Positions 6,625 to 21,700 of a stretch of 42,068 nt of DNA are shown here, in pieces (the stretch's first letter is position 1; the number at the start of each line of letters is the position of its first letter). A program made the position numbers and the translations under genes. The notes beneath the pieces were generated by a model. That model did no database searches and was not told the origin of the DNA. It was given only the letters and a program-made list of their open reading frames with translations. Source of the DNA: an uncultured Eisenbergiella sp. (GTDB lineage Bacteria > Bacillota > Clostridia > Lachnospirales > Lachnospiraceae); the NCBI GenBank assembly GCA_947626995.1, contig CANQUI010000014.1, positions 1-42,068 on the forward strand. Direction: 5' to 3'.

Positions 6625-7947
6625 TCAAATCCGATAAAGGTATTTTTCAATTTCCCACTCGGAAACCTGTGACATATATTCGTTCCACTCCGCCTTTTTG
6701 GATTCCACATAAAGCTGCACGAACTCTCCGCCCAGCACGGTCCTCATAAAATCGTCCCGTTCCAGGCAGGAAACCGCTTCCGGCAGCGTCTCCGGCAAAT
6801 GCTCGATACCGGCCGCCGCCTTTTCTTCGTCGGTGCGCTCGGAAAAATGGTAGGCCGCCGCCGCGCCGGGATCGGTTTTTTTCTCAATTCCGTCAAGCCC
6901 CGCTGCGATACACGCCGTCAGCGCCAGATAGGGGTTGGCGGAAGGATCCGGGAAGCGCAGTTCGATGGTGCTGTCGCTTCCCTGCTTTGCATGGACGCGG
7001 ATCAGCGTATTCTGATTCCGGGTGGTCCAGATGATATCCCGGGGCGCTTCAAACCCGGACATCAGCCGTTTATAGGAGTTGACCAGCGGATTGGTGAGCG
7101 CGCACATGCCCTTGGCGTGCGCCATGACGCCGCCCATGAACCAGCGGGCCTGATCGCTGATGCCCTCCGGATCGTTGGGGTCATAAAAGACATTTTTTCC
7201 GTCTTTGATCAGGGTAAAACTCATGTGCATGCCGGATCCCGCCGATCCCGCGGTGGGCTTTGGCATGAAGGTGGCGTGCAGGCCGAAGCGTTTGGCCGTG
7301 GAACGGACCGCGTTTTTAAAGGTGACGATTTTATCCGCGATTTCCAGCGCCTCCGCGCGTTTGAAGTCGATCTCATGCTGGGCCGGCGCGCTCTCATGGA
7401 AAGAGGATTCGATCTCAAATCCCATGTTTTCCAGCGTCAGCACCATCTCCCGCCGGGCGTTTTCCCCCAGATCCAGCGGACTCACATCCAAAAATCCCGC
7501 CGTCTCATGGCTCAGCGTGGTGGGGATGCCGTTCTCATCGGTATGAAATAAAAAGAACTCACATTCCGGATGTACAAACACGGTATATCCCTGGTCCTTC
7601 GCCTTTTGGAGCGTCCGCTTGAGCATGGCGCGGGTGCTCACGGGAAGCGGGGAGCCGTCCTCTCTGCGCACGTCGCACAAAAGTCTGGCCACCTTTCCCT
7701 GCTGGGGCCTCCAGGGCAGGATCACAAAGGTATCCAGATCGGGCTGCAGGAAAAGATCCCCTTCGCTCCTGTCCCAGATGCCGTCCATGCCGTAGCCGTC
7801 AAAGGCACATTCATTGTTGATCGCCCGCTCCAGCTGACTGGCCGTCACCGCTACGTTTTTCAGCACGCCGAACATATCGGTAAACTGCAGACGGATGAAT
7901 TCCACATCCTCTTCCTTCACCAATCGCAAAATCTCAGCCTTTGTCAT
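6625..7947 (-). CDS. glnA: Glutamine synthetase type I
   Basis: It makes glutamine from glutamate, ammonium and ATP in a cytoplasmic dodecamer. The 440-residue length and sequence fit the GSI-alpha group of Firmicutes: FTDMFGVLKNVAV near residue 22, FDGYGMDGI, PECEFFLF near 126 (metal-binding Glu), SAGSGMHMSF near 235, and NQNTLIRVHA near 315. The adenylylation-site motif of GSI-beta enzymes is absent, so adenylylation is not expected; feedback control is likelier. A GAGGAG ribosome binding site lies about 10 bases upstream of the ATG. It follows gltD by 40 bases and precedes the ANTAR regulator by 8, an arrangement that supports coordinated GS/GOGAT expression. A second, unrelated synthetase (type III) lies at 16026. 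Confidence 0.95.
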   Translation of the reverse strand: MTKAEILRLVKEEDVEFIRLQFTDMFGVLKNVAVTASQLERAINNECAFDGYGMDGIWDRSEGDLFLQPDLDTFVILPWRPQQGKVARLLCDVRREDGSPLPVSTRAMLKRTLQKAKDQGYTVFVHPECEFFLFHTDENGIPTTLSHETAGFLDVSPLDLGENARREMVLTLENMGFEIESSFHESAPAQHEIDFKRAEALEIADKIVTFKNAVRSTAKRFGLHATFMPKPTAGSAGSGMHMSFTLIKDGKNVFYDPNDPEGISDQARWFMGGVMAHAKGMCALTNPLVNSYKRLMSGFEAPRDIIWTTRNQNTLIRVHAKQGSDSTIELRFPDPSANPYLALTACIAAGLDGIEKKTDPGAAAAYHFSERTDEEKAAAGIEHLPETLPEAVSCLERDDFMRTVLGGEFVQLYVESKKAEWNEYMSQVSEWEIEKYLYRI

Positions 7948-14049: not shown

Positions 14050-15695
14050 TCCATTTCCTCCTTGGCTGTCGCCGCATATTCCGTTTTGCCGGCGTTTTCA
14101 TATCGGACCGCCGCCTCGATCAGCCCCTTAAACAAAGGATGGGCCAGATTCGGACGCGACTTGAATTCCGGATGGGCCTGGGTGGCCACAAAAAACGGAT
14201 GATCGGCCAGCTCGATCATTTCCACGATCCGGCCGTCCGGAGAGATCCCGGAAAGCACCATGCCGTTTTTCTCCAGGATTTCCCGGTAATCGTTGTTCAC
14301 TTCATAGCGATGACGGTGACGTTCTGAAATTTCTTTTTTCCCATACAGCTTCCTGGCCAGCGATCCCTCTTTTAAAAGACAGGGATACGCCCCCAGGCGG
14401 AGCGTGCCGCCGATGTTCTCCACGCCGTTTTGCTCCGGCATCAGCGCGATCACGGGATCCGGCGTATCCGGATCCAGTTCGATACTGGCCGCCGCGCCAA
14501 GTCCCGCCACGTTTCTTGCAAATTCCACGATGGCCAGCTGCATCCCCAGACACAGCCCCAGATAGGGGATTTTATTTCTTCGGGCGTATCCCACCGCCAG
14601 GATCTTTCCTTCCGTTCCTCTCTGGCCGAACCCGCCCGGTACCAAAATACCGTCCACATCGTGCAGATATTCTCCCAGATTCTCCGGCGTCAGCTCTTCC
14701 GCGTCGATCCAGCGGATGTGCACTTCCGCCCGGTTGGCAATGCCGCCGTGCTTTAACGCTTCGACCACGCTCAGGTACGCGTCGTGCAGCGCCACGTATT
14801 TTCCCACCAGAGCGATGGTCACCTCGGTAAGCGGATGATGCAAATCCTCCACCATCGCGTACCAGTCGCTCAGGTTCGGCTCCGGGCAGGGCAGATGCAG
14901 ACATTCGCACACCGCCTGGGCCAGCTTTTCCTTTTCCAGCATCAGCGGAACCTCATAGAGGGAAGGGGCGTCCAGATTCTGCAGCACATGTTCTTTTTTC
15001 ACGTTACAAAACAGCGCGATCTTTTCCTTCATTTTATCATCCAGCGGATAATCGGAACGGCACACCAGAATGTCCGGCCAGATCCCCATGCTCTGCAAAG
15101 ACTTGACGCTCATCTGGGTGGGCTTTGTTTTCATTTCCCCGGACGCTTTTAAATAAGGAATCAACGTCACCTGGATCAGCGCCACATTCTCCCGTCCCAT
15201 CTGCGCCTGAAACTGTCGGATCGCTTCCAGGAAGGGCTGGCTTTCGATATCGCCCACCGTGCCGCCCACCTCGATGATGGAAATGGTTTCCTCCTCCGGC
15301 GTCTTCGCCTGATAGAACCGGGACTTGATCTCGTTGGTAATATGCGGGATCACCTGTACCGTCCCGCCGCCGTAGTCCCCATGGCGTTCCTTATTTAATA
15401 CGGACCAGTAAATCTTTCCGGTGGTCACGTTGGAATTAAAATCCAGGCTCTCGTCAATGAACCGCTCATAGTGCCCCAGATCCAGATCCGTCTCGGTACC
15501 GTCGTCGGTCACATAGACCTCTCCGTGCTGGATGGGGTTCATCGTGCCCGGATCCACATTGATATAAGGATCAAACTTCTGCATCGTCACATGGTAGCCT
15601 CTGGCCTTTAACAGACGTCCCAGCGATGCCGCCGTGATTCCTTTCCCCAGGCCGGATACGACGCCGCCCGTCACAAACACGTATTTTACCGCCAT
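14046..15695 (-). CDS. pyrG: CTP synthase
   Basis: It aminates UTP to CTP with glutamine-derived ammonia and ATP. The 549 residues show the synthetase domain ([17 protein letters not shown] at the N-terminus, [25 protein letters not shown]) and a class I glutaminase domain from about residue 300 ([12 protein letters not shown], then LCLGMQLA with the nucleophile Cys, and a late HPEF). The ATG at 15695 has GGGAGG 8 bases upstream. It opens the operon and overlaps gltB by 4 bases. Linking pyrG with glutamate synthase is uncommon and fits a glutamine-spending theme. A promoter and a long leader hairpin precede it. Confidence 0.97.
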
Positions 15696-15726
15696 ACTCT
15701 CTCCTCCCGTCCTGTATGAACAGAGA

Positions 15727-15769
15727 AGGGCATCAAATAAGCCTGCTTTGGCAGGCTATCTGACGCCCT
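15727..15769 (-). promoter_or_regulatory. Long leader hairpin upstream of pyrG
   Basis: Read on the minus strand, two arms of 19-20 nt (AGGGCGTCAGATAGCCTGC and its partner) pair over 19 bp with two G-U pairs, one bulged U and the loop CAAA. The hairpin lies about 35 nt downstream of the likely transcription start and 31 nt before the ATG. The following bases (TTCTCTGTTC) are only moderately U-rich, so this is a weak terminator at best, or an RNA stability or attenuation element. Known pyrG leaders of Firmicutes use CTP-dependent attenuation. The arm here contains GGGC, but it is not placed at the likely transcript start, so that mechanism is not demonstrated. Confidence 0.6.
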
Positions 15770-15811
15770 CGTCATTCCGTAATTACCAATATGTTTTCAA
15801 TCTCTCGTAAT

Positions 15812-15840
15812 AGTTTATACGATTCATGCGGATTTGTAAA
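15812..15840 (-). promoter_or_regulatory. Sigma-A promoter of the pyrG-gltBD-glnA-ANTAR-dapL operon
   Basis: On the minus strand, TTTACA (15840-15835) and TAAACT (15817-15812) are 17 bases apart. Transcription should start near 15805, giving a leader of about 110 nt. A TATAAA shifted by two bases is an alternative -10. It diverges from the glnN promoter, whose -35 begins about 60 bases away, so one intergenic region serves both arms of the glutamine island. Confidence 0.55.
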
Positions 15841-15896
15841 GTCTTTTTCTTCGATTTTCCGTAAAAATAAAATGCCGATTTTTTATAAAAAAGTGC

Positions 15897-15924
15897 TTGA
15901 CATTTCTTCTGAGGGGTGTATACT
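15897..15924 (+). promoter_or_regulatory. Sigma-A promoter of glnN
   Basis: A perfect TTGACA (15897-15902) and TATACT (15919-15924) are 16 bases apart. The glmS promoter at 21590 has the same -35, -10 and spacer length. Transcription should begin near 15931, immediately before the ANTAR-type hairpin and terminator, so the leader has almost no other sequence upstream of the switch. Confidence 0.8.
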
Positions 15925-15933
15925 ACGAATCGT

Positions 15934-15949
15934 AAAGCAAAGGCGCTTT
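15934..15949 (+). promoter_or_regulatory. Putative ANTAR-binding hairpin in the glnN leader
   Basis: A 5-bp stem AAAGC / GCTTT closes the hexaloop AAAGGC. Loop position 1 is A and position 4 is G, the two conserved bases of described ANTAR-target hairpins. The loop and 3' half of this hairpin are also the 5' arm of the terminator at 15939-15975, so only one structure can form at a time. The amt leader has the same loop with a different but still paired stem. Described ANTAR targets usually have two such hairpins in tandem; I find only one here. Confidence 0.65.
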
Positions 15950-15975
15950 GGAGGATCTCCGAAGCGCTTTTTTTA
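15939..15975 (+). terminator. Leader terminator (attenuator) before glnN
   Basis: A 15-bp stem (AAAGGCGCTTTGGAG pairing with CTCCGAAGCGCTTTT, loop GAT, two G-U pairs) is followed by a run of seven T. It lies between the glnN promoter and the glnN ribosome binding site, with no gene before it, so its job must be premature termination. Its 5' arm is shared with the hexaloop hairpin at 15934-15949. Confidence 0.85.
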
Positions 15976-16025
15976 TGTGAGAACGCAGCCAAACGCGTGA
16001 TCGAAGATCGAAAGGAGAACATTTT

Positions 16026-18122
16026 ATGGAAAAAGGGATTCCCGAACTTTATGGCAGCCTGGTCTTTAACGACAAGGTGATGCGCGACAAGCTCCCGAAG
16101 GATATTTATAAAGCGTTGCGCAAAACGATCGAGAATAACACGCATCTGGAGTTGGATGTGGCCAATTCCGTAGCGGTAGCGATGAAGGAATGGGCCGTGG
16201 AAAACGGCGCCACGCATTTCACGCACTGGTTCCAGCCGATGACAGGTTTCACGGCGGAAAAGCACGACAGCTTCATCTCCCCTGTGGGCAATGGACAGAT
16301 CATTATGGACTTTTCCGGCAAGGAGCTTGTAAAGGGCGAACCCGACGCTTCCAGTTTCCCCTCCGGCGGCCTGAGAGCCACCTTTGAGGCAAGAGGCTAT
16401 ACCGCGTGGGATCCCACCTCTCCTGCGTTCATCAAGGACGGCACCTTATATATCCCCACCGCTTTCTGTTCCTACAGCGGCGAAGCGCTGGATAAGAAAA
16501 CACCTCTCCTGCGTTCCATGGAGACTCTGAGCAAGGAAGCCACCAAGATCCTGAATCTGCTGGGACAGACGGACGTGACCAGCGTTTCCACTACCATCGG
16601 TCCCGAGCAGGAATATTTCCTGATCGACAAGGATCTGTACACGCAGCGCAAAGACCTGATCTTCACCGGACGGACGCTGCTGGGCGCAATGCCTCCCAAA
16701 GGGCAGGAAATGGAAGATCATTATTTTGGCGCCTTAAAACCCCGCGTGGCCGCTTACATGCACGATCTTGACATGGAGCTTTGGAAGCTGGGAATTCCCG
16801 CCAAGACCAAGCACAATGAGGTGGCCCCTTCCCAGCACGAGCTGGCTCCCATTTTTGATACCGCCAATATCGCGGTGGACCACAACCAGCTGACCATGGA
16901 GATCATGAAAAAGGTGGCGGACAAACACGGCCTGGTATGCCTGCTCCATGAAAAGCCCTTCGACGGCATCAACGGTTCGGGCAAACACAACAACTGGTCC
17001 ATGATCACCAACACCGGCGTCAATCTGCTGGATCCCGGCCGTACCCCCGCCGAAAACATCCAGTTTCTGATCTTTTTAATGGCTGTCATCAAGGCCGTGG
17101 ACGAATATGCGGATCTGATGCGTCTGTCCGTGGCCAGCGCAGGAAACGATCACCGGCTGGGCGCCAACGAAGCGCCTCCCGCCATTGTTTCCATTTTCCT
17201 GGGCGATGAGCTGACCGCCGTTTTGGATTCCATCGAAAACGACACCTTCTTTGGCAAACATCAGCGCATCCAGATGGAAACCGGTGCCACGGTGCTGCCC
17301 CATTTCTTTAAGGACAATACGGACAGAAACCGTACTTCGCCTTTTGCGTTTACGGGCAATAAGTTCGAATTCCGTATGCTGGGTTCTTCCATCTCCGTGG
17401 CTGGCCCCAACATCATCCTGAACACGGCGGTAGCGGAAGCGCTCTCCCAGTTCTATGACGAGTTAAAGGACACGCCGGCGGACGGCATGGAGGAAGCGGT
17501 ACATGCGCTGGTAAAACGCGCCATTTTAAAACATAAAAAGATCATCTTCAACGGAAACGGTTATACCGACGAATGGGTGGAGGAAGCGGAAAAACGCGGA
17601 CTTTACAATCTCAAATCCACGCCGGAAGCGCTGCCTTGCTTCATCGCAAAAAAGAATATCAAGCTGTTCACCGAGCATAAGATCTTTACCGAAAGCGAGA
17701 TCTATTCCCGCTATGAGATCCTGCTGGAGAACTACTGCAAGACGCTTCACATCGAGGCGAGAACCATGCAGGATATGATCCGTCGCGACTTCCTTCCCGC
17801 TCTGATGGAATACACCGACGAGGTGACCTGCTCCATCAGCGGCAAAAAGGCGGTGGCCGACCTGCCCTGCACGGCCGAGACCAAACTGCTTTCCAAGCTG
17901 TCCGGCTATTACGAGGAGATCTATCTGGCCGAGGAGAAACTGGAAGCCGACACCAAAACGGCGGAAGGACTTGCGGATATGCAGGAAGCGGCAAACTTTT
18001 ATCATGAAACGATCCTGGCCGATATGGACGCTATCCGTAAGGCTGCGGACGCGGCGGAGGAATATCTGCCCGACAGCATCCTTCCCTATCCGAATTACGA
18101 GGCCCTTCTGTTCTCCGTCTGA
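16026..18122 (+). CDS. glnN: Glutamine synthetase type III
   Basis: This 698-residue enzyme belongs to the large GSIII family, typical of Bacteroidetes, cyanobacteria and Clostridia, and makes glutamine from glutamate and ammonium. Visible blocks are THFTHWFQPMTGFTAEKHDSF near residue 58, SSFPSGGLRATFEARGYTAWD near 110, GPEQEYFLID near 194, KTKHNEVAPSQHELAP near 262, and GSGKHNNWSM near 318 (GK-HNN instead of the GMH of GSI). The ATG has AAAGGAGA about 8 bases before it. Transcription starts about 95 bases upstream and must pass an intrinsic terminator that overlaps an ANTAR-type hairpin. It begins a plus-strand operon with purF and amt, divergent from the operon with glnA. Confidence 0.95.
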   Translation: MEKGIPELYGSLVFNDKVMRDKLPKDIYKALRKTIENNTHLELDVANSVAVAMKEWAVENGATHFTHWFQPMTGFTAEKHDSFISPVGNGQIIMDFSGKELVKGEPDASSFPSGGLRATFEARGYTAWDPTSPAFIKDGTLYIPTAFCSYSGEALDKKTPLLRSMETLSKEATKILNLLGQTDVTSVSTTIGPEQEYFLIDKDLYTQRKDLIFTGRTLLGAMPPKGQEMEDHYFGALKPRVAAYMHDLDMELWKLGIPAKTKHNEVAPSQHELAPIFDTANIAVDHNQLTMEIMKKVADKHGLVCLLHEKPFDGINGSGKHNNWSMITNTGVNLLDPGRTPAENIQFLIFLMAVIKAVDEYADLMRLSVASAGNDHRLGANEAPPAIVSIFLGDELTAVLDSIENDTFFGKHQRIQMETGATVLPHFFKDNTDRNRTSPFAFTGNKFEFRMLGSSISVAGPNIILNTAVAEALSQFYDELKDTPADGMEEAVHALVKRAILKHKKIIFNGNGYTDEWVEEAEKRGLYNLKSTPEALPCFIAKKNIKLFTEHKIFTESEIYSRYEILLENYCKTLHIEARTMQDMIRRDFLPALMEYTDEVTCSISGKKAVADLPCTAETKLLSKLSGYYEEIYLAEEKLEADTKTAEGLADMQEAANFYHETILADMDAIRKAADAAEEYLPDSILPYPNYEALLFSV

Positions 18123-18164: not shown

Positions 18165-19592
18165 ATGTCCATACAGACATCTGACAAAACAACCGCACGC
18201 ACCGGCGCAAAGCGCGTAGCGCTGGTGCGTTCCATAAAAGAAGAATGTGGCGTGTTCGGAATCCTCAATCCGGACGCGGCGCCGGCGGCGCCCGATCTGT
18301 ATTACGGTCTGAGCGCCCTGCAGCACCGCGGACAGGAAGCCGCCGGTATGGCGGTGTGCGATACCTTCGGCCCCATGGGAAATATCTCCTCGAAAAAGGA
18401 CATGGGACTGGTCAGCGAGGTTTTCCGTCCCGATACCCTAAACGCCTTACAGGGCAATCTGGGCATCGGTCACGTACGCTATTCCACCACCGGTTCCAGC
18501 ACCGCAGAAAACGCCCAGCCTCTGGTTTTGAAGTATTTAAAGGGCACGCTAGCGCTCTGCCATAACGGAAATCTGACCAATGCGGCGCAGCTGCGTCAGG
18601 AGCTGGAGGAAAGCGGCGCCATCTTTCACACCACTACGGATTCGGAAGTGATCGCCTGCCATATCGCGCGGGAACGGACGAAAACTGCCTGCGTGGAGGA
18701 TGCCATTTTACATACCGCAAGAAAATTGAAGGGCGGCTACGCACTGGTCATCATGAGCCCCCGTAAGCTGATCGGCGTACGGGACCCGCTGGGACTCAAA
18801 CCGCTCTGTCTGGGCAAACGAAAGGACAGCTACATCCTGGCTTCCGAAAGCTGCGCCCTGACCGCTGTAAACGCGGAATTTGTCCGCGATATCCTGCCCG
18901 GCGAGATCGTCACCATCACCAAAGACAGAATCCGGTCCGACTGCCGGCTCACGCAGGAAAAACACGCGCACTGTATTTTTGAATACATCTACTTCGCCCG
19001 GCTGGATTCCACGCTGGACAAAGTGAATGTTTACGACGCGAGGATCCGCGCCGGAAAGGCGCTGGCGCTCTCCCATCCCGCAAAAGCGGATCTGGTCACC
19101 GGCGTCCCCGACTCCGGCCTCGCGGCCGCAATGGGTTTCGCACAGGCCTCCGGCCTGCCCTTTGCCCTTGCGTTTCACAAAAACAGCTATGTGGGAAGGA
19201 CGTTCATCAAACCCACCCAAAAGGAGCGGGAATCGGCCGTCCACCTGAAACTGAGCGTACTGTCCAGCGTCGTGAGGGACAAAAGCATCGTCCTCATCGA
19301 CGATTCCATCGTCCGCGGCACCACAATGGCAAGCCTCATCAACATGTTAAAACAGGCCGGGGCGAAAGAGGTCCATGTGCGCATCAGCTCCCCTCCCTTT
19401 CTGTACCCTTGTTATTACGGAACCGATGTTCCCAGTAACGACCAGCTGATCGCTTCTTCCCACACAGCTGATGAAATCTGCGCCCGCATCGGCGCGGATT
19501 CCCTGGGCTATATGCGGATCGACGATCTTTCCCAAATGACCGGGGAGCTTCCATTATGTAAAGCGTGTTTTGATAACCAATATCCTGTGTAA
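18165..19592 (+). CDS. purF: Amidophosphoribosyltransferase (glutamine PRPP amidotransferase)
   Basis: It catalyses the first step of purine synthesis, transferring glutamine-derived ammonia to PRPP. It has 475 residues with an N-terminal propeptide: the class II glutaminase nucleophile should be Cys28 in EECGVFGI. The glutaminase pattern is clear (ALQHRGQEAAGMAV, GIGHVRYSTTG, ALCHNGNLTN). The PRPP loop is SIVLIDDSIVRGTTM near residue 367. Four Cys placed like the Fe-S ligands of Bacillus PurF are present (HCIFEYIYF, YPCYYGTD and LCKAC), so an oxygen-sensitive cluster is likely. The start is 42 bases after glnN, with AGGAAGG upstream and no separate promoter seen. It may be a second purF copy tied to nitrogen status; I cannot see the rest of the pur genes. 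Confidence 0.94.
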   Translation: MSIQTSDKTTARTGAKRVALVRSIKEECGVFGILNPDAAPAAPDLYYGLSALQHRGQEAAGMAVCDTFGPMGNISSKKDMGLVSEVFRPDTLNALQGNLGIGHVRYSTTGSSTAENAQPLVLKYLKGTLALCHNGNLTNAAQLRQELEESGAIFHTTTDSEVIACHIARERTKTACVEDAILHTARKLKGGYALVIMSPRKLIGVRDPLGLKPLCLGKRKDSYILASESCALTAVNAEFVRDILPGEIVTITKDRIRSDCRLTQEKHAHCIFEYIYFARLDSTLDKVNVYDARIRAGKALALSHPAKADLVTGVPDSGLAAAMGFAQASGLPFALAFHKNSYVGRTFIKPTQKERESAVHLKLSVLSSVVRDKSIVLIDDSIVRGTTMASLINMLKQAGAKEVHVRISSPPFLYPCYYGTDVPSNDQLIASSHTADEICARIGADSLGYMRIDDLSQMTGELPLCKACFDNQYPV

Positions 19593-19612
19593 CACTCTCC
19601 CCTTTGGTTATC
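19572..19612 (+). repeat. Inverted repeat at the purF stop
   Basis: GATAACCAA (19572-19580) and TTGGTTATC (19604-19612) are perfect 9-bp complements with 23 bases between them; the first arm overlaps the purF end. No T-run follows, so it is not a standard terminator. It could protect or shape the purF-amt junction in mRNA, or it could be chance. Confidence 0.35.
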
Positions 19613-19628
19613 GGACATTCTTTAATAC

Positions 19629-19674
19629 ACAACGCAAAGGCGCGTTTCAAAACAGGAAACGCGTCTTTTGTTGT
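19629..19674 (+). terminator. Leader terminator-like hairpin before amt
   Basis: AAAGGCGCGTTTC pairs with GAAACGCGTCTTT over 13 bp (one G-U) around a 7-nt loop, and an outer ACAAC / GTTGT helix extends it. The T-tract is interrupted (CTTTTGTTGT), so termination may be weaker than in the glnN leader. It lies between the purF stop and the amt ribosome binding site. A second small repeat, GGCC-TTTT-GGCC flanked by A-runs (19676-19700), lies directly in front of the AGGAGG site and may influence ribosome access. Confidence 0.65.
19631..19646 (+). promoter_or_regulatory. Putative ANTAR-binding hairpin in the amt leader
   Basis: A 5-bp stem AACGC / GCGTT closes the hexaloop AAAGGC, identical to the loop in the glnN leader and with the A1 and G4 of ANTAR targets. 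The stem bases differ from glnN at two pairs, and both changes keep pairing. The 3' half is shared with the 5' arm of the hairpin at 19629-19674, so the folds are mutually exclusive. I see no good -35/-10 pair just upstream, so readthrough from purF is the likely RNA source. Confidence 0.65.
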
Positions 19675-19716: not shown

Positions 19717-21507
19717 ATGAGTGAAGAGATTTTGAGCGCCTTAAACGGCGAAGTGTTCGGCGTCTGGTTTTTGATCGGCGCCGCGCTGGTGTTCTGGATG
19801 CAGGCCGGATTTGCCATGGTGGAAACCGGCTTTACCAGAGCCAAGAACGCGGGCAACATTCTGATGAAAAACCTGATGGATTTTTGTATCGGCACGGTGG
19901 TCTTTATCCTGATCGGCTTTAGCCTGCTGCTGGGAGAAGACCTGGTGGGCTTTATCGGAAAACCCGGGTTTGACATTTTCACGTCCTACGGCAGTTTCGA
20001 TTGGTCCAACTTTGTATTCAATCTGGTGTTCTGCGCCACCACGGCGACCATCGTATCCGGCGCCATGGCGGAACGCACCAAGTTCCTTTCCTACTGCATT
20101 TACTCCGCAGTAATCTCCGCGGTGATCTATCCCGTGGAGGCGCACTGGACCTGGGGCGGCGGCTGGCTGGCCCAGATCGGATTCCATGATTTTGCGGGTT
20201 CCAACTGTATCCATATGGTAGGCGGTACCAGCGCTCTGATCGGCGCGGCTCTGCTTGGCCCCCGTATCGGAAAATTTGTAAAAGACAAGGCCGGAAAAGT
20301 CACTAAGGTCAACGCATTCCCCGGTCACAACCTTCCCATCGGCTGCCTGGGCGTCTTCATTCTCTGGCTTGGCTGGTACGGTTTCAACGGCGCGGCCGCC
20401 ACTTCCGTCGAAGAGCTGGGATCCATCTTTTTAACCACTACCATCGCGCCCTCTGTGGCCACTGTGGTCTGCATGGTCTTTACCTGGATCAAGTATGGCA
20501 AGCCCGATGTTTCCATGTGTTTGAACGCGTCCCTGGCGGGCCTTGTGGCCATCACGGCGCCCTGTGACGTCTGCGACGCCTTCGGCTCCATTATCATCGG
20601 CGCCATAGCCGGTCTGCTGGTGGTATTCGGCGTATGGTTTTTGGACTACAAGCTGCATATTGACGACCCGGTAGGCGCCGTGGCGGTACACTTCCTCAAC
20701 GGCATCTGGGGTACCCTCTCGGTAGGTCTGTTCGCCACCGATACCGCGCCCGCCTTTGCAAGAGGCTTCGGCGACGGCGTCACCTTCGGTGCGAACCAGA
20801 TCGCCGGAAAAGGCCTGTTCTACGGCGGCGGCTTCCGTCTTCTGGGCATCCAGTGCCTGGGCGTGATCGCCACACTGGCCTGGACCGCCGTTACCATCAC
20901 CATTGCGTTCCTGGTCATTCGGGCCCTTGTGGGACTGCGGGTCACCAAAGATGAAGAGATCATCGGTCTGGACGCCTGCGAGCACGGTCTGACCAGCGCT
21001 TACGCCGGCTTCTCCATCATGGATATCTCCAACACCATGACCATGGATGTCAACGAAAATACGGATCTGGGCACCGATGCGTATGAGGAAGCGTCCGAGG
21101 TGCAAAAGGCCGCCGCGGTTCCTGTGGCCGGCGCGCCGGTGGAGACCGATACCGGAATCCACAAGGTCGTCATCATCACCAAGCTGTCCAGCTACGAGAA
21201 GATCAAAAAGGCGATGAACGATCTGGGCGTCACCGGCATGACGGTTACGCAGGTCATGGGCTGCGGCATCCAGAAGGGCGCCGGGAGCATGTACCGCGGC
21301 GTAGAAGTGGATGCGACTTTGCTGCCTAAGGTCAAGATCGAAGTGGTCGTAAGCAAGATCCCGGTCGCTTCCGTAATCGAAACGGCCAAAAAGACACTCT
21401 ACACCGGCCATATCGGCGATGGTAAGATCTTTGTCTATAATGTCAGCCAGGTGGTGAAGGTCCGCACCGGCGAGGAAGGCCTTGCCGCTTTGCAGGACGT
21501 AGAATAA
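19717..21507 (+). CDS. amt: Ammonium channel (Amt) fused to a C-terminal PII signalling domain
   Basis: Residues 1-430 are an Amt channel with 11 likely membrane helices. They show FWMQAGFAMVETGFTRAKN, SGAMAERTKF, and the pore His pair in NCIHMVGGTSAL and VAVHFLNGIWGTL. After a 55-residue linker, residues 482-596 form a PII (GlnB/GlnK) domain: HKVVIITKLSSYEKIKKAM, a T-loop with QKGAGSMYRG, TGHIGDGKIFV and VKVRTGEEG. In separate systems GlnK plugs AmtB when nitrogen is plentiful; here sensor and channel are one chain. The Tyr in MYRG aligns with the uridylylated Tyr of GlnB, though no uridylyltransferase is seen. AGGAGG lies 9 bases before the ATG. It follows purF by 124 bases, with a terminator-hairpin switch between. 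Confidence 0.93.
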   Translation: MSEEILSALNGEVFGVWFLIGAALVFWMQAGFAMVETGFTRAKNAGNILMKNLMDFCIGTVVFILIGFSLLLGEDLVGFIGKPGFDIFTSYGSFDWSNFVFNLVFCATTATIVSGAMAERTKFLSYCIYSAVISAVIYPVEAHWTWGGGWLAQIGFHDFAGSNCIHMVGGTSALIGAALLGPRIGKFVKDKAGKVTKVNAFPGHNLPIGCLGVFILWLGWYGFNGAAATSVEELGSIFLTTTIAPSVATVVCMVFTWIKYGKPDVSMCLNASLAGLVAITAPCDVCDAFGSIIIGAIAGLLVVFGVWFLDYKLHIDDPVGAVAVHFLNGIWGTLSVGLFATDTAPAFARGFGDGVTFGANQIAGKGLFYGGGFRLLGIQCLGVIATLAWTAVTITIAFLVIRALVGLRVTKDEEIIGLDACEHGLTSAYAGFSIMDISNTMTMDVNENTDLGTDAYEEASEVQKAAAVPVAGAPVETDTGIHKVVIITKLSSYEKIKKAMNDLGVTGMTVTQVMGCGIQKGAGSMYRGVEVDATLLPKVKIEVVVSKIPVASVIETAKKTLYTGHIGDGKIFVYNVSQVVKVRTGEEGLAALQDVE

Positions 21508-21589: not shown

Positions 21590-21617
21590 TTGACATCCTC
21601 TCCCAATCGTGTATACT
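21590..21617 (+). promoter_or_regulatory. Sigma-A promoter of glmS
   Basis: TTGACA (21590-21595), a 16-base spacer and TATACT (21612-21617) match the glnN promoter in both hexamers and spacing. Transcription should start near 21624, about 20 bases before the leader terminator. Confidence 0.8.
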
Positions 21618-21643
21618 AACAGGAGAAGAAAAAAATTGAAACG

Positions 21644-21683
21644 AAGACGCGCTATCAAGTCTGTTGATATAGGCGTCTTTTTT
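21644..21683 (+). terminator. Leader terminator (attenuator) before glmS
   Basis: AAGACGC pairs with GCGTCTT, continued by CTAT / ATAG and CAA / TTG with small bulges, and ends in a run of six T directly before the GGAGG of glmS. The leader is only about 75 nt long and contains nothing resembling the glmS ribozyme found in many Firmicutes. An alternative fold (TTGA / TCAA plus CG / CG around the hexaloop AAGACG, 21636-21658) would break the terminator. It mirrors the glnN and amt leaders but has an imperfect stem and G at loop position 3. Confidence 0.7.
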
Positions 21684-21700
21684 GAAATGGAGGTCTATCT

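Follow-up and report, generated by a model that had tools for sequence, protein, structure and literature searches.

What decides whether glnN, the gene for a type III glutamine synthetase (GSIII), is transcribed in an uncultured Eisenbergiella sp., when its leader carries only one hexaloop hairpin of the kind that the ANTAR protein EutV requires in pairs? In the Enterococcus faecalis eut leaders, EutV needs both hairpins in vivo: deletion of the first (P1) ablated induction, and P1 is joined to P2 by a linker of 5–12 nt (PMC3369931). The same work (Ramesh 2012) predicted ANTAR-type leaders at ammonium transporter, P-II, and glutamate and glutamine synthase genes, using a covariance search built on two hairpins, a model that we infer would miss single units. 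In Walshe 2022 the minimal ANTAR binding site shrinks to one hexaloop, antitermination is still held to require two, and natural single sites are named as a subject for further work (PMC8934654). In the literature on nitrogen assimilation, NitR of Clostridium saccharobutylicum is described as acting by antitermination of GS/GOGAT genes on nitrogen limitation (PMC6316151; the role is cited also in PMC4676874), and the same GS/GOGAT role has been suggested for an ANTAR protein of C. thermocellum (PMC4676874).

Here, we analyze the window, a 42,068-nucleotide stretch that makes up contig C14 in a draft genome of 2.5 Mb (G000), and conclude with a probability of about 80% that its glnN leader is an ANTAR-type transcription attenuator with a single hexaloop, which the ANTAR protein would bind to bring about antitermination. 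The plus strand carries glnN, purF, amt with its P-II domain, and glmS, in that order; the minus strand carries pyrG, gltB, gltD, glnA, the ANTAR gene and a gene for LL-diaminopimelate aminotransferase (Table 1). The closest GSIII match, among the 80 matches listed in the scan of named sequences, is 90% identical and comes from an uncultured Lachnospiraceae bacterium. Spanning the purF stop codon (19571–19614) is an inverted repeat, GATAACC...GGTTATC, whose arms vary jointly in the genus by eye, for example as GACAACC/GGTTGTC.

Table 1. Positions of the regulatory elements and associated genes in the window
Feature	Position	Strand	Basis
glnN promoter, sigma-70-type, TTGACA-16-TATACT	15897..15924	+	11/12 consensus matches
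Single ANTAR-type hexaloop hairpin AAAGC-AAAGGC-GCTTT, putative antiterminator	15934..15949	+	read directly, scan, covariation
Intrinsic terminator, stem 15939–15971, T tract 15968–15974	15939..15974	+	scan, folding
glnN, type III glutamine synthetase (GSIII)	16026..18122	+	Pfam GSIII_N, E 3.3e-81
purF, amidophosphoribosyltransferase, between glnN and amt	18165..19592	+	TIGR01134 above cut-off
Second single hexaloop AACGC-AAAGGC-GCGTT, purF–amt gap	19631..19646	+	scan; R1 match 19628–19669, E 1.1e-6
Terminator overlapping the amt hexaloop	19637..19669	+	sequence; fold of unit
amt, ammonium transporter, C-terminal P-II domain	19717..21507	+	Pfam Ammonium_transp, P-II
ANTAR protein, 184 aa	6062..6616	-	PF03861, E 2.1e-16
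glnA, type I glutamine synthetase, next gene upstream of ANTAR	6625..7947	-	TIGR00653 above cut-off

The boxes of the glnN promoter, TTGACA at 15897–15902 and TATACT at 15919–15924 with a 16-nt spacer between them, match the consensus at 11 of 12 positions and bear out the strong promoter claimed in the original prediction; by rule of thumb, the transcript is expected to start near 15931–15932. The hairpin consists of AAAGC (15934–15938), the loop AAAGGC (15939–15944, with A1 at 15939 and G4 at 15942) and GCTTT (15945–15949), and its loop starts 14 nt past the end of the −10 box. Direct reading and a motif scan both agree with the earlier claim that hairpin and terminator overlap: nucleotides 15939–15949 serve as the loop and 3’ arm of the first and also lie in the 5’ arm of the second. 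The terminator had been described as a 15-bp stem with seven T. Both counts are correct, and 7 of the 15 pairs are G-C, but four pairs at the foot (three A-T, one G-T) consume four T of the tract, so that 11 pairs are left if the tract is to be single-stranded.

The terminator is the predicted fold of the free leader (−22.3 kcal/mol, z −4.81, with 0 of 200 shuffles as good), and the calculated energies are −2.9 kcal/mol for the hexaloop alone and −20.7 kcal/mol for the terminator. In a growing transcript whose start is taken as 15931, the hexaloop is part of the minimum-energy fold at lengths of 18–32 nt and the terminator stem appears from 34–36 nt. The shared arm and this stepwise order support the mutual exclusion of the two structures that had been proposed. 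Rfam gave no match in the window at the gathering score, and the region 15690–16030 produced only sub-threshold ones. An A1/G4 hexaloop with a stem of at least three pairs and an overlapping terminator, as in the published dual element, is present in the glnN leader; a second hexaloop (P1) was not found upstream in it, and we therefore file the element as a single-hexaloop variant and not as a member of the dual-element class.

Relatives retain this arrangement. Window-type glnN occurs in 9 of the 13 genomes of the genus at 84–100% identity, and the unit of hexaloop and terminator is present in all eight readable leaders, though leader sequence outside it has diverged; the contig of the ninth ortholog (L009) ends at the gene. 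One of these leaders has the loop AACGGC, in which A1 and G4 are kept. Across the family, reading found the unit in 28 of 29 glnN leaders fetched (L085 by eye), the exception being L091. Among 77 named glnN leaders (80 loci minus L214, L236 and L239, which have less than 150 nt upstream), 39 combine an A1/G4 loop, a stem of at least four pairs and an overlapping terminator, compared with a mean of 1.2 and a maximum of 4 across 20 dinucleotide-shuffled sets; some of the 38 that miss this strict rule are near misses.

Because the terminator includes the hairpin’s loop and 3’ arm, both would be conserved anyway, and the hairpin might be a by-product of selection for a strong terminator, in an unregulated attenuator that no protein reads. 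We give this account very little credence. Six other loop classes occur in only 0–4 of the 77 named leaders, against 39 for A1/G4, and the 5’ arm of the hexaloop, which lies outside the terminator, nonetheless covaries with the 3’ arm. A first count over 29 distinct units gave 88.3% pairing versus 72.8% in shuffles, and 23 double changes versus 7.8. Because those units had been chosen with a stem requirement, a cleaner test comes from matches to R1, a covariance model built from 36 units on terminator pairs only (alignment A1 holds 49 units minus 13 near-duplicates or odd ones; L085 is in no alignment). In 40 distinct R1 matches, 93.0% of the stem cells are paired versus 81.8% after shuffling, with 22 double changes versus 7.4, and none of 500 shuffles reaches either value; of two weaker measures, the count of doubly changed pairs was reached in 11 of 500 shuffles and that of pair types in 120. 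When the partner is slid by 1–3 columns, pairing falls from 93% to 22.5–57%. Variants of AAAGC/GCTTT include ACAGC/GCTGT, AAGGC/GTCTT, AGAC/GTCT and GAAGC/GCTTC. Judged from these alignments, the hexaloop stem covaries in relatives while A1 and G4 of the loop stay fixed, and the check that had been suggested for conservation of hexaloop and stem in homologous leaders thus came out with both conserved and the stem compensated. R1 also matches plain terminators that have no A1/G4 hexaloop (L193, L204 and L206), and alignment A4 retains L193 together with the 22 nt common to L204 and L206.

Leaving these three out of 59 R1-match loci gives 56, of which 32 come from the same family and 24 from 15 others (16 Clostridia families in all). 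A1 and G4 are present in all 56, and the loop is AAAGGC in 45. With promoters and loops chosen by simple rules, a promoter was found within the 60 nt searched at 50 of the 56 loci, and at 45 of these 50 the loop starts 13–16 nt after the −10 box. The five outliers lie at 19, 20, 22, 26 and 31 nt; at L201, the promoter at 19 nt is weak and a better one stands further upstream by eye. For the named set, the same kind of rules gave 12–17 nt in 26 of 33 cases and 20–125 nt in the other seven. Since a start would be expected about 7 nt past the −10 box, a spacing of 13–16 nt would have the RNA begin at the foot of the hairpin and leaves no room for a second one. The single hairpin between start and terminator, put forward as a possible minimal variant, thus extends well beyond one leader (45 of 50 loci).

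The same geometry makes it very improbable that the element is an ordinary two-hairpin ANTAR target whose P1 was overlooked and whose true transcript start lies upstream of the one that the promoter predicts: at the 45 loci P1 would sit inside the promoter. Nor is P1 any commoner than expected. An A1/G4 version with a stem of at least four pairs occurs at 1 of 56 loci, against 0.9 expected; allowing A or G at loop position 1 gives 3 of 56 (expected 1.3, maximum 6 in 200 shuffle sets), and accepting stems of three pairs or more gives 3 of 56 (expected 2.6). Two-hairpin versions probably do exist in the class, as three genomes carry a hexaloop hairpin with a linker of 2–7 nt to the unit: AACGAG in G164, and GATGAC and GACGAC at the same place in G254 and G198, which belong to one family. 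Though their count is no more than chance, we regard these three as likely two-hairpin leaders because a promoter near the unit is weak or absent by rule, the linkers are short, and the hairpin is shared by G254 and G198.

The glnN hexaloop is one of several in this genome. The stem of the amt hexaloop in the purF–amt gap is compensated relative to that of glnN, and the only other R1 match in the genome, at G000:C17:12735–12778, has the stem GAGAC/GTTTC with one G-U pair and precedes genes that read as a putative amino-acid ABC transporter ATPase and binding protein. In the genus, all ten amt leaders read contain the unit (the partial L061 is left out), with stems such as AACGC/GCGTT, GCAC/GTGT and ACGC/GCGT, four stems of three pairs (CGC/GCG), and the loops AAAGGC, AAAGGT or AAGGAC. 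Relatives have units before gltB, pyrG-gltB-gltD, glnA-ANTAR, glmS and amt, and also at glnN, pyrG and glnA; glnN, amt and glnA, whose leaders had been proposed for such a search, are among these genes. The ANTAR gene cluster has a unit of its own in G003 and G063 (TTGAC-AAAGGC-GTCAA, a complete A1/G4 unit placed ahead of pyrG or gltB) and in G015 (AGAAC-AAAGGC-GTTCT). The suggestion that glmS is a further target holds for the relatives G002 and G003, whose glmS leaders have an A1/G4 unit, but not for the window: we rejected its glmS leader (21590–21685) as a third site, as it combines a near-consensus promoter and a terminator with no A1/G4 hexaloop unit, and Rfam families, the glmS ribozyme among them, gave no match to it.

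Several further hairpins lie at the edges of this set. In the window, the leader of the pyrG-gltBD-glnA-ANTAR genes contains TGAC-GAGGGC-GTCA (15774–15761, minus strand), read by eye and kept as a weak candidate; it has G at loop position 1 and no clear T tract, lies in a long hairpin, and is absent from the motif scan results. A second GSIII type of the genus, 52–55% identical, has no unit in the leaders looked at, one of which (L017) shows a hexaloop with no terminator. Units can also stand in series, 61–84 nt apart and each with its own terminator, with three in G220 (L310) and two before glnN in G347 (L311). At L330 (G006:C29:35307), a G1-type hairpin (GAAGGC) and a terminator precede a gene whose product presumably resembles a circularly permuted ATP-grasp protein.

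If an ANTAR protein reads the hexaloop, the two should occur together. A Pfam search of 150 sampled genomes of the family found ANTAR in 131 and not in 19. R1 matched 87 of the 131 ANTAR-positive and 0 of the 19 ANTAR-negative genomes at E ≤ 1e-5 (raw counts in which kinship and completeness are ignored), 103 and 1 at 1e-4, and 121 and 8 at 1e-2; with the 26 seed genomes removed, the counts at 1e-5 are 62 of 105 and 0 of 19. No R1 match at 1e-5 was found in 44 of the 131 ANTAR-positive genomes. A laxer R1 rescan of the 19 ANTAR-negative genomes gave nothing below 2.2e-5, and the 16 R1 matches printed for such genomes are mostly plain terminators. Within the genus, ANTAR is present in 12 of 13 genomes, and G004, the sole one in which it was not detected, is also the sole one with no R1 match at E ≤ 0.01; it has neither window-type glnN nor window-type amt. 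All 16 genomes of other families have ANTAR, which is weak support because this sample was picked for R1 matches.

These counts bear on whether some other RNA-binding protein reads the hexaloop and the ANTAR link reflects shared ancestry. Such a protein might account for G126, in which no ANTAR domain was detected and in which a G1 hexaloop and terminator stand before an other-type GSIII gene (by eye). With R1 matches at 1e-5 in none of the 19 ANTAR-negative but 87 of the 131 ANTAR-positive genomes, and with an A1/G4 loop rule that is the published ANTAR rule (PMC3369931), we consider this alternative extremely unlikely. One apparent exception also has a simple possible cause: in G149, with no ANTAR detected, the unit TGAAC-AAAGGC-GTTCG precedes glnA, but the contig breaks off within that gene, short of the place expected for ANTAR, so at least one ANTAR negative may be an assembly gap.

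By eye, hairpins with the loops GACGGC (G126, L132), GAAGAC (G149, L136) and GAAGGT (G028, L126) lie beside terminators at other-type GSIII genes in genomes with no detected ANTAR. The G1 loops found beside terminators (GAGGGC, GAAGGT, GACGGC and GAAGAC, partly by eye) suggest that some of the set follows an R1-G4 loop rule, R here denoting A or G; the motif is then wider, and the claim of a strict A1 weaker.

The genome has a single ANTAR match, the putative reader. Its ANTAR domain is C-terminal and scores 59.9 bits against a curated cut-off of 27.3 (PF03861), and its predicted model combines a receiver-like domain with the ANTAR helices (pLDDT 88.0, pTM 0.63), the best PDB matches being Rv1626 and EutV at a TM of about 0.5, with AmiR at rank 13. 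With EutV numbering set by aligning the residues named in PMC8934654, the protein shares with EutV the ANTAR fold and K149, Y164 and M172. It differs at R142, K143 and K147, which are Q, N and N, and in its receiver-like domain, where the phospho-Asp stretch reads VVICSY and holds no Asp. Among 30 family ANTAR proteins, K149 and M172 are kept in all, the residue at 164, the one that in EutV stacks on G4, is H in 21, Y in 6 and F in 3, and a basic residue (K or R) is found at 142, 143 and 147 in 13, 5 and 8, respectively (alignment A5 of ANTAR proteins leaves out L035, L037, L043 and L049). Outside the family, 9 of 15 ANTAR proteins from 14 other genomes have I-R-R-K-H-M at these six contact positions.

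With no usual Asp in its receiver-like domain, the protein is probably controlled through a partner. The ANTAR antiterminators AmiR and NasT are held by their partners AmiC and NasS and are not switched by phosphorylation, and we propose control by a partner here as well. GlnA is the candidate to which gene order points: glnA lies upstream of the ANTAR gene in each of the 30 best-scoring loci among 109 family matches, and likewise in 20 of the 22 loci examined from a further 29, the exceptions being G164 and G172, the latter near a contig start. In the window itself, the order gltB-gltD-glnA-ANTAR places the ANTAR gene in a GS/GOGAT cluster, as in the NitR type. A suspected GlnA-ANTAR fusion in G031 proved on reading to be a PyrG-ANTAR protein. 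This product of L124:2125–3873, a PyrG (CTP synthase) with a C-terminal ANTAR domain, is the only ANTAR match of its genome, the glnN leader of which retains the hexaloop unit; a 100-codon piece at a contig end (L302, G075) looks like PyrG-ANTAR too.

We propose that the RNA would begin at the foot of the hairpin, given the predicted start, and that the hexaloop would form first as the RNA leaves the polymerase. An active ANTAR protein would bind the A1/G4 loop and hold the hairpin, which would take the 5’ arm away from the terminator and allow GSIII to be made. With no active ANTAR protein, the far stronger terminator would form and transcription would end at about 15974. The amt unit would take the same decision again inside the gene cluster, and GlnA, judging from gene order, may report the nitrogen state to the ANTAR protein. 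The direction of the response, with GSIII on when the ANTAR protein is active, is part of this proposal. The protein could instead bind the hexaloop with the opposite sign or in another mode, such as pausing or an effect on the ribosome, and Ramesh et al. do mention ANTAR sites near ribosome-binding sites (PMC3369931). We think this very improbable, as the collected units as a rule overlap a terminator, the two folds are mutually exclusive, and NitR is said to induce GS/GOGAT genes on nitrogen limitation (PMC6316151). A point against antitermination by a single hexaloop is the P1 requirement of EutV (PMC3369931).

A broader extension of antitermination at a single hexaloop is more tentative, and we place its chance somewhat below even. 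It would have a Clostridia-wide, GlnA-paired ANTAR subfamily run an ammonia-assimilation regulon through promoter-proximal single-hexaloop attenuators, with protein and RNA changed together and GlnA acting as a glutamine sensor that gates the RNA-binding protein. A recruitment hairpin would not be needed, because the hexaloop would be the very 5’ end of the RNA. As for the joint change, proteins of single leaders would have lost the receiver Asp (as read in Lachnospiraceae) and the EutV contacts, and the ANTAR proteins of G164 and G254, the only two likely dual-leader genomes that were paired with their ANTAR, would have kept both. The latter have contact residues R-K-K-K-Y-M in G164 and R-K-R-K-F-M in G254, and their receiver Asp is intact (LVLVDFDLP and LIIADADLP in the G254 and G164 proteins, L342 and L343), whereas it is absent from the Lachnospiraceae proteins read. 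We hold the extension less likely because two-hairpin leaders (3 of 56) are not above chance and because G220 has single units together with R-K-K-K-H-M, which makes the link between protein and leader type only a hint.

The regulator and regulon are thus of a known kind (NitR/ANTAR). As with NitR of C. saccharobutylicum and C. acetobutylicum, an ANTAR regulator is paired with GS/GOGAT genes, and as in the nitrogen regulons of Ramesh 2012, leaders lie at ammonium-transport and glutamine/glutamate genes. As in the EutV targets, an A1/G4 hexaloop on a short stem has a 3’ side that is the 5’ arm of a terminator. Unlike the eut leaders, the window leader has one hexaloop and not two, at the expected transcript start; and unlike NitR, as far as its literature is accessible, the target RNA is defined here, as a single promoter-proximal hexaloop at GSIII, amt and, in relatives, glmS. 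A literature search yielded no single-hexaloop leaders in Clostridia among the matches listed, most subscription journals lying outside that search. What is new is that the usual form in Lachnospiraceae, and in the 15 other Clostridia families sampled, is a single promoter-anchored hexaloop, that covariation supports it, and that GSIII is a main target. In these leaders, nature supplies many single sites that overlap a terminator and stand at almost the same distance from the promoter, which makes the question of why P1 is needed directly testable; the nitrogen regulon also becomes readable in a family that is prominent among gut bacteria.
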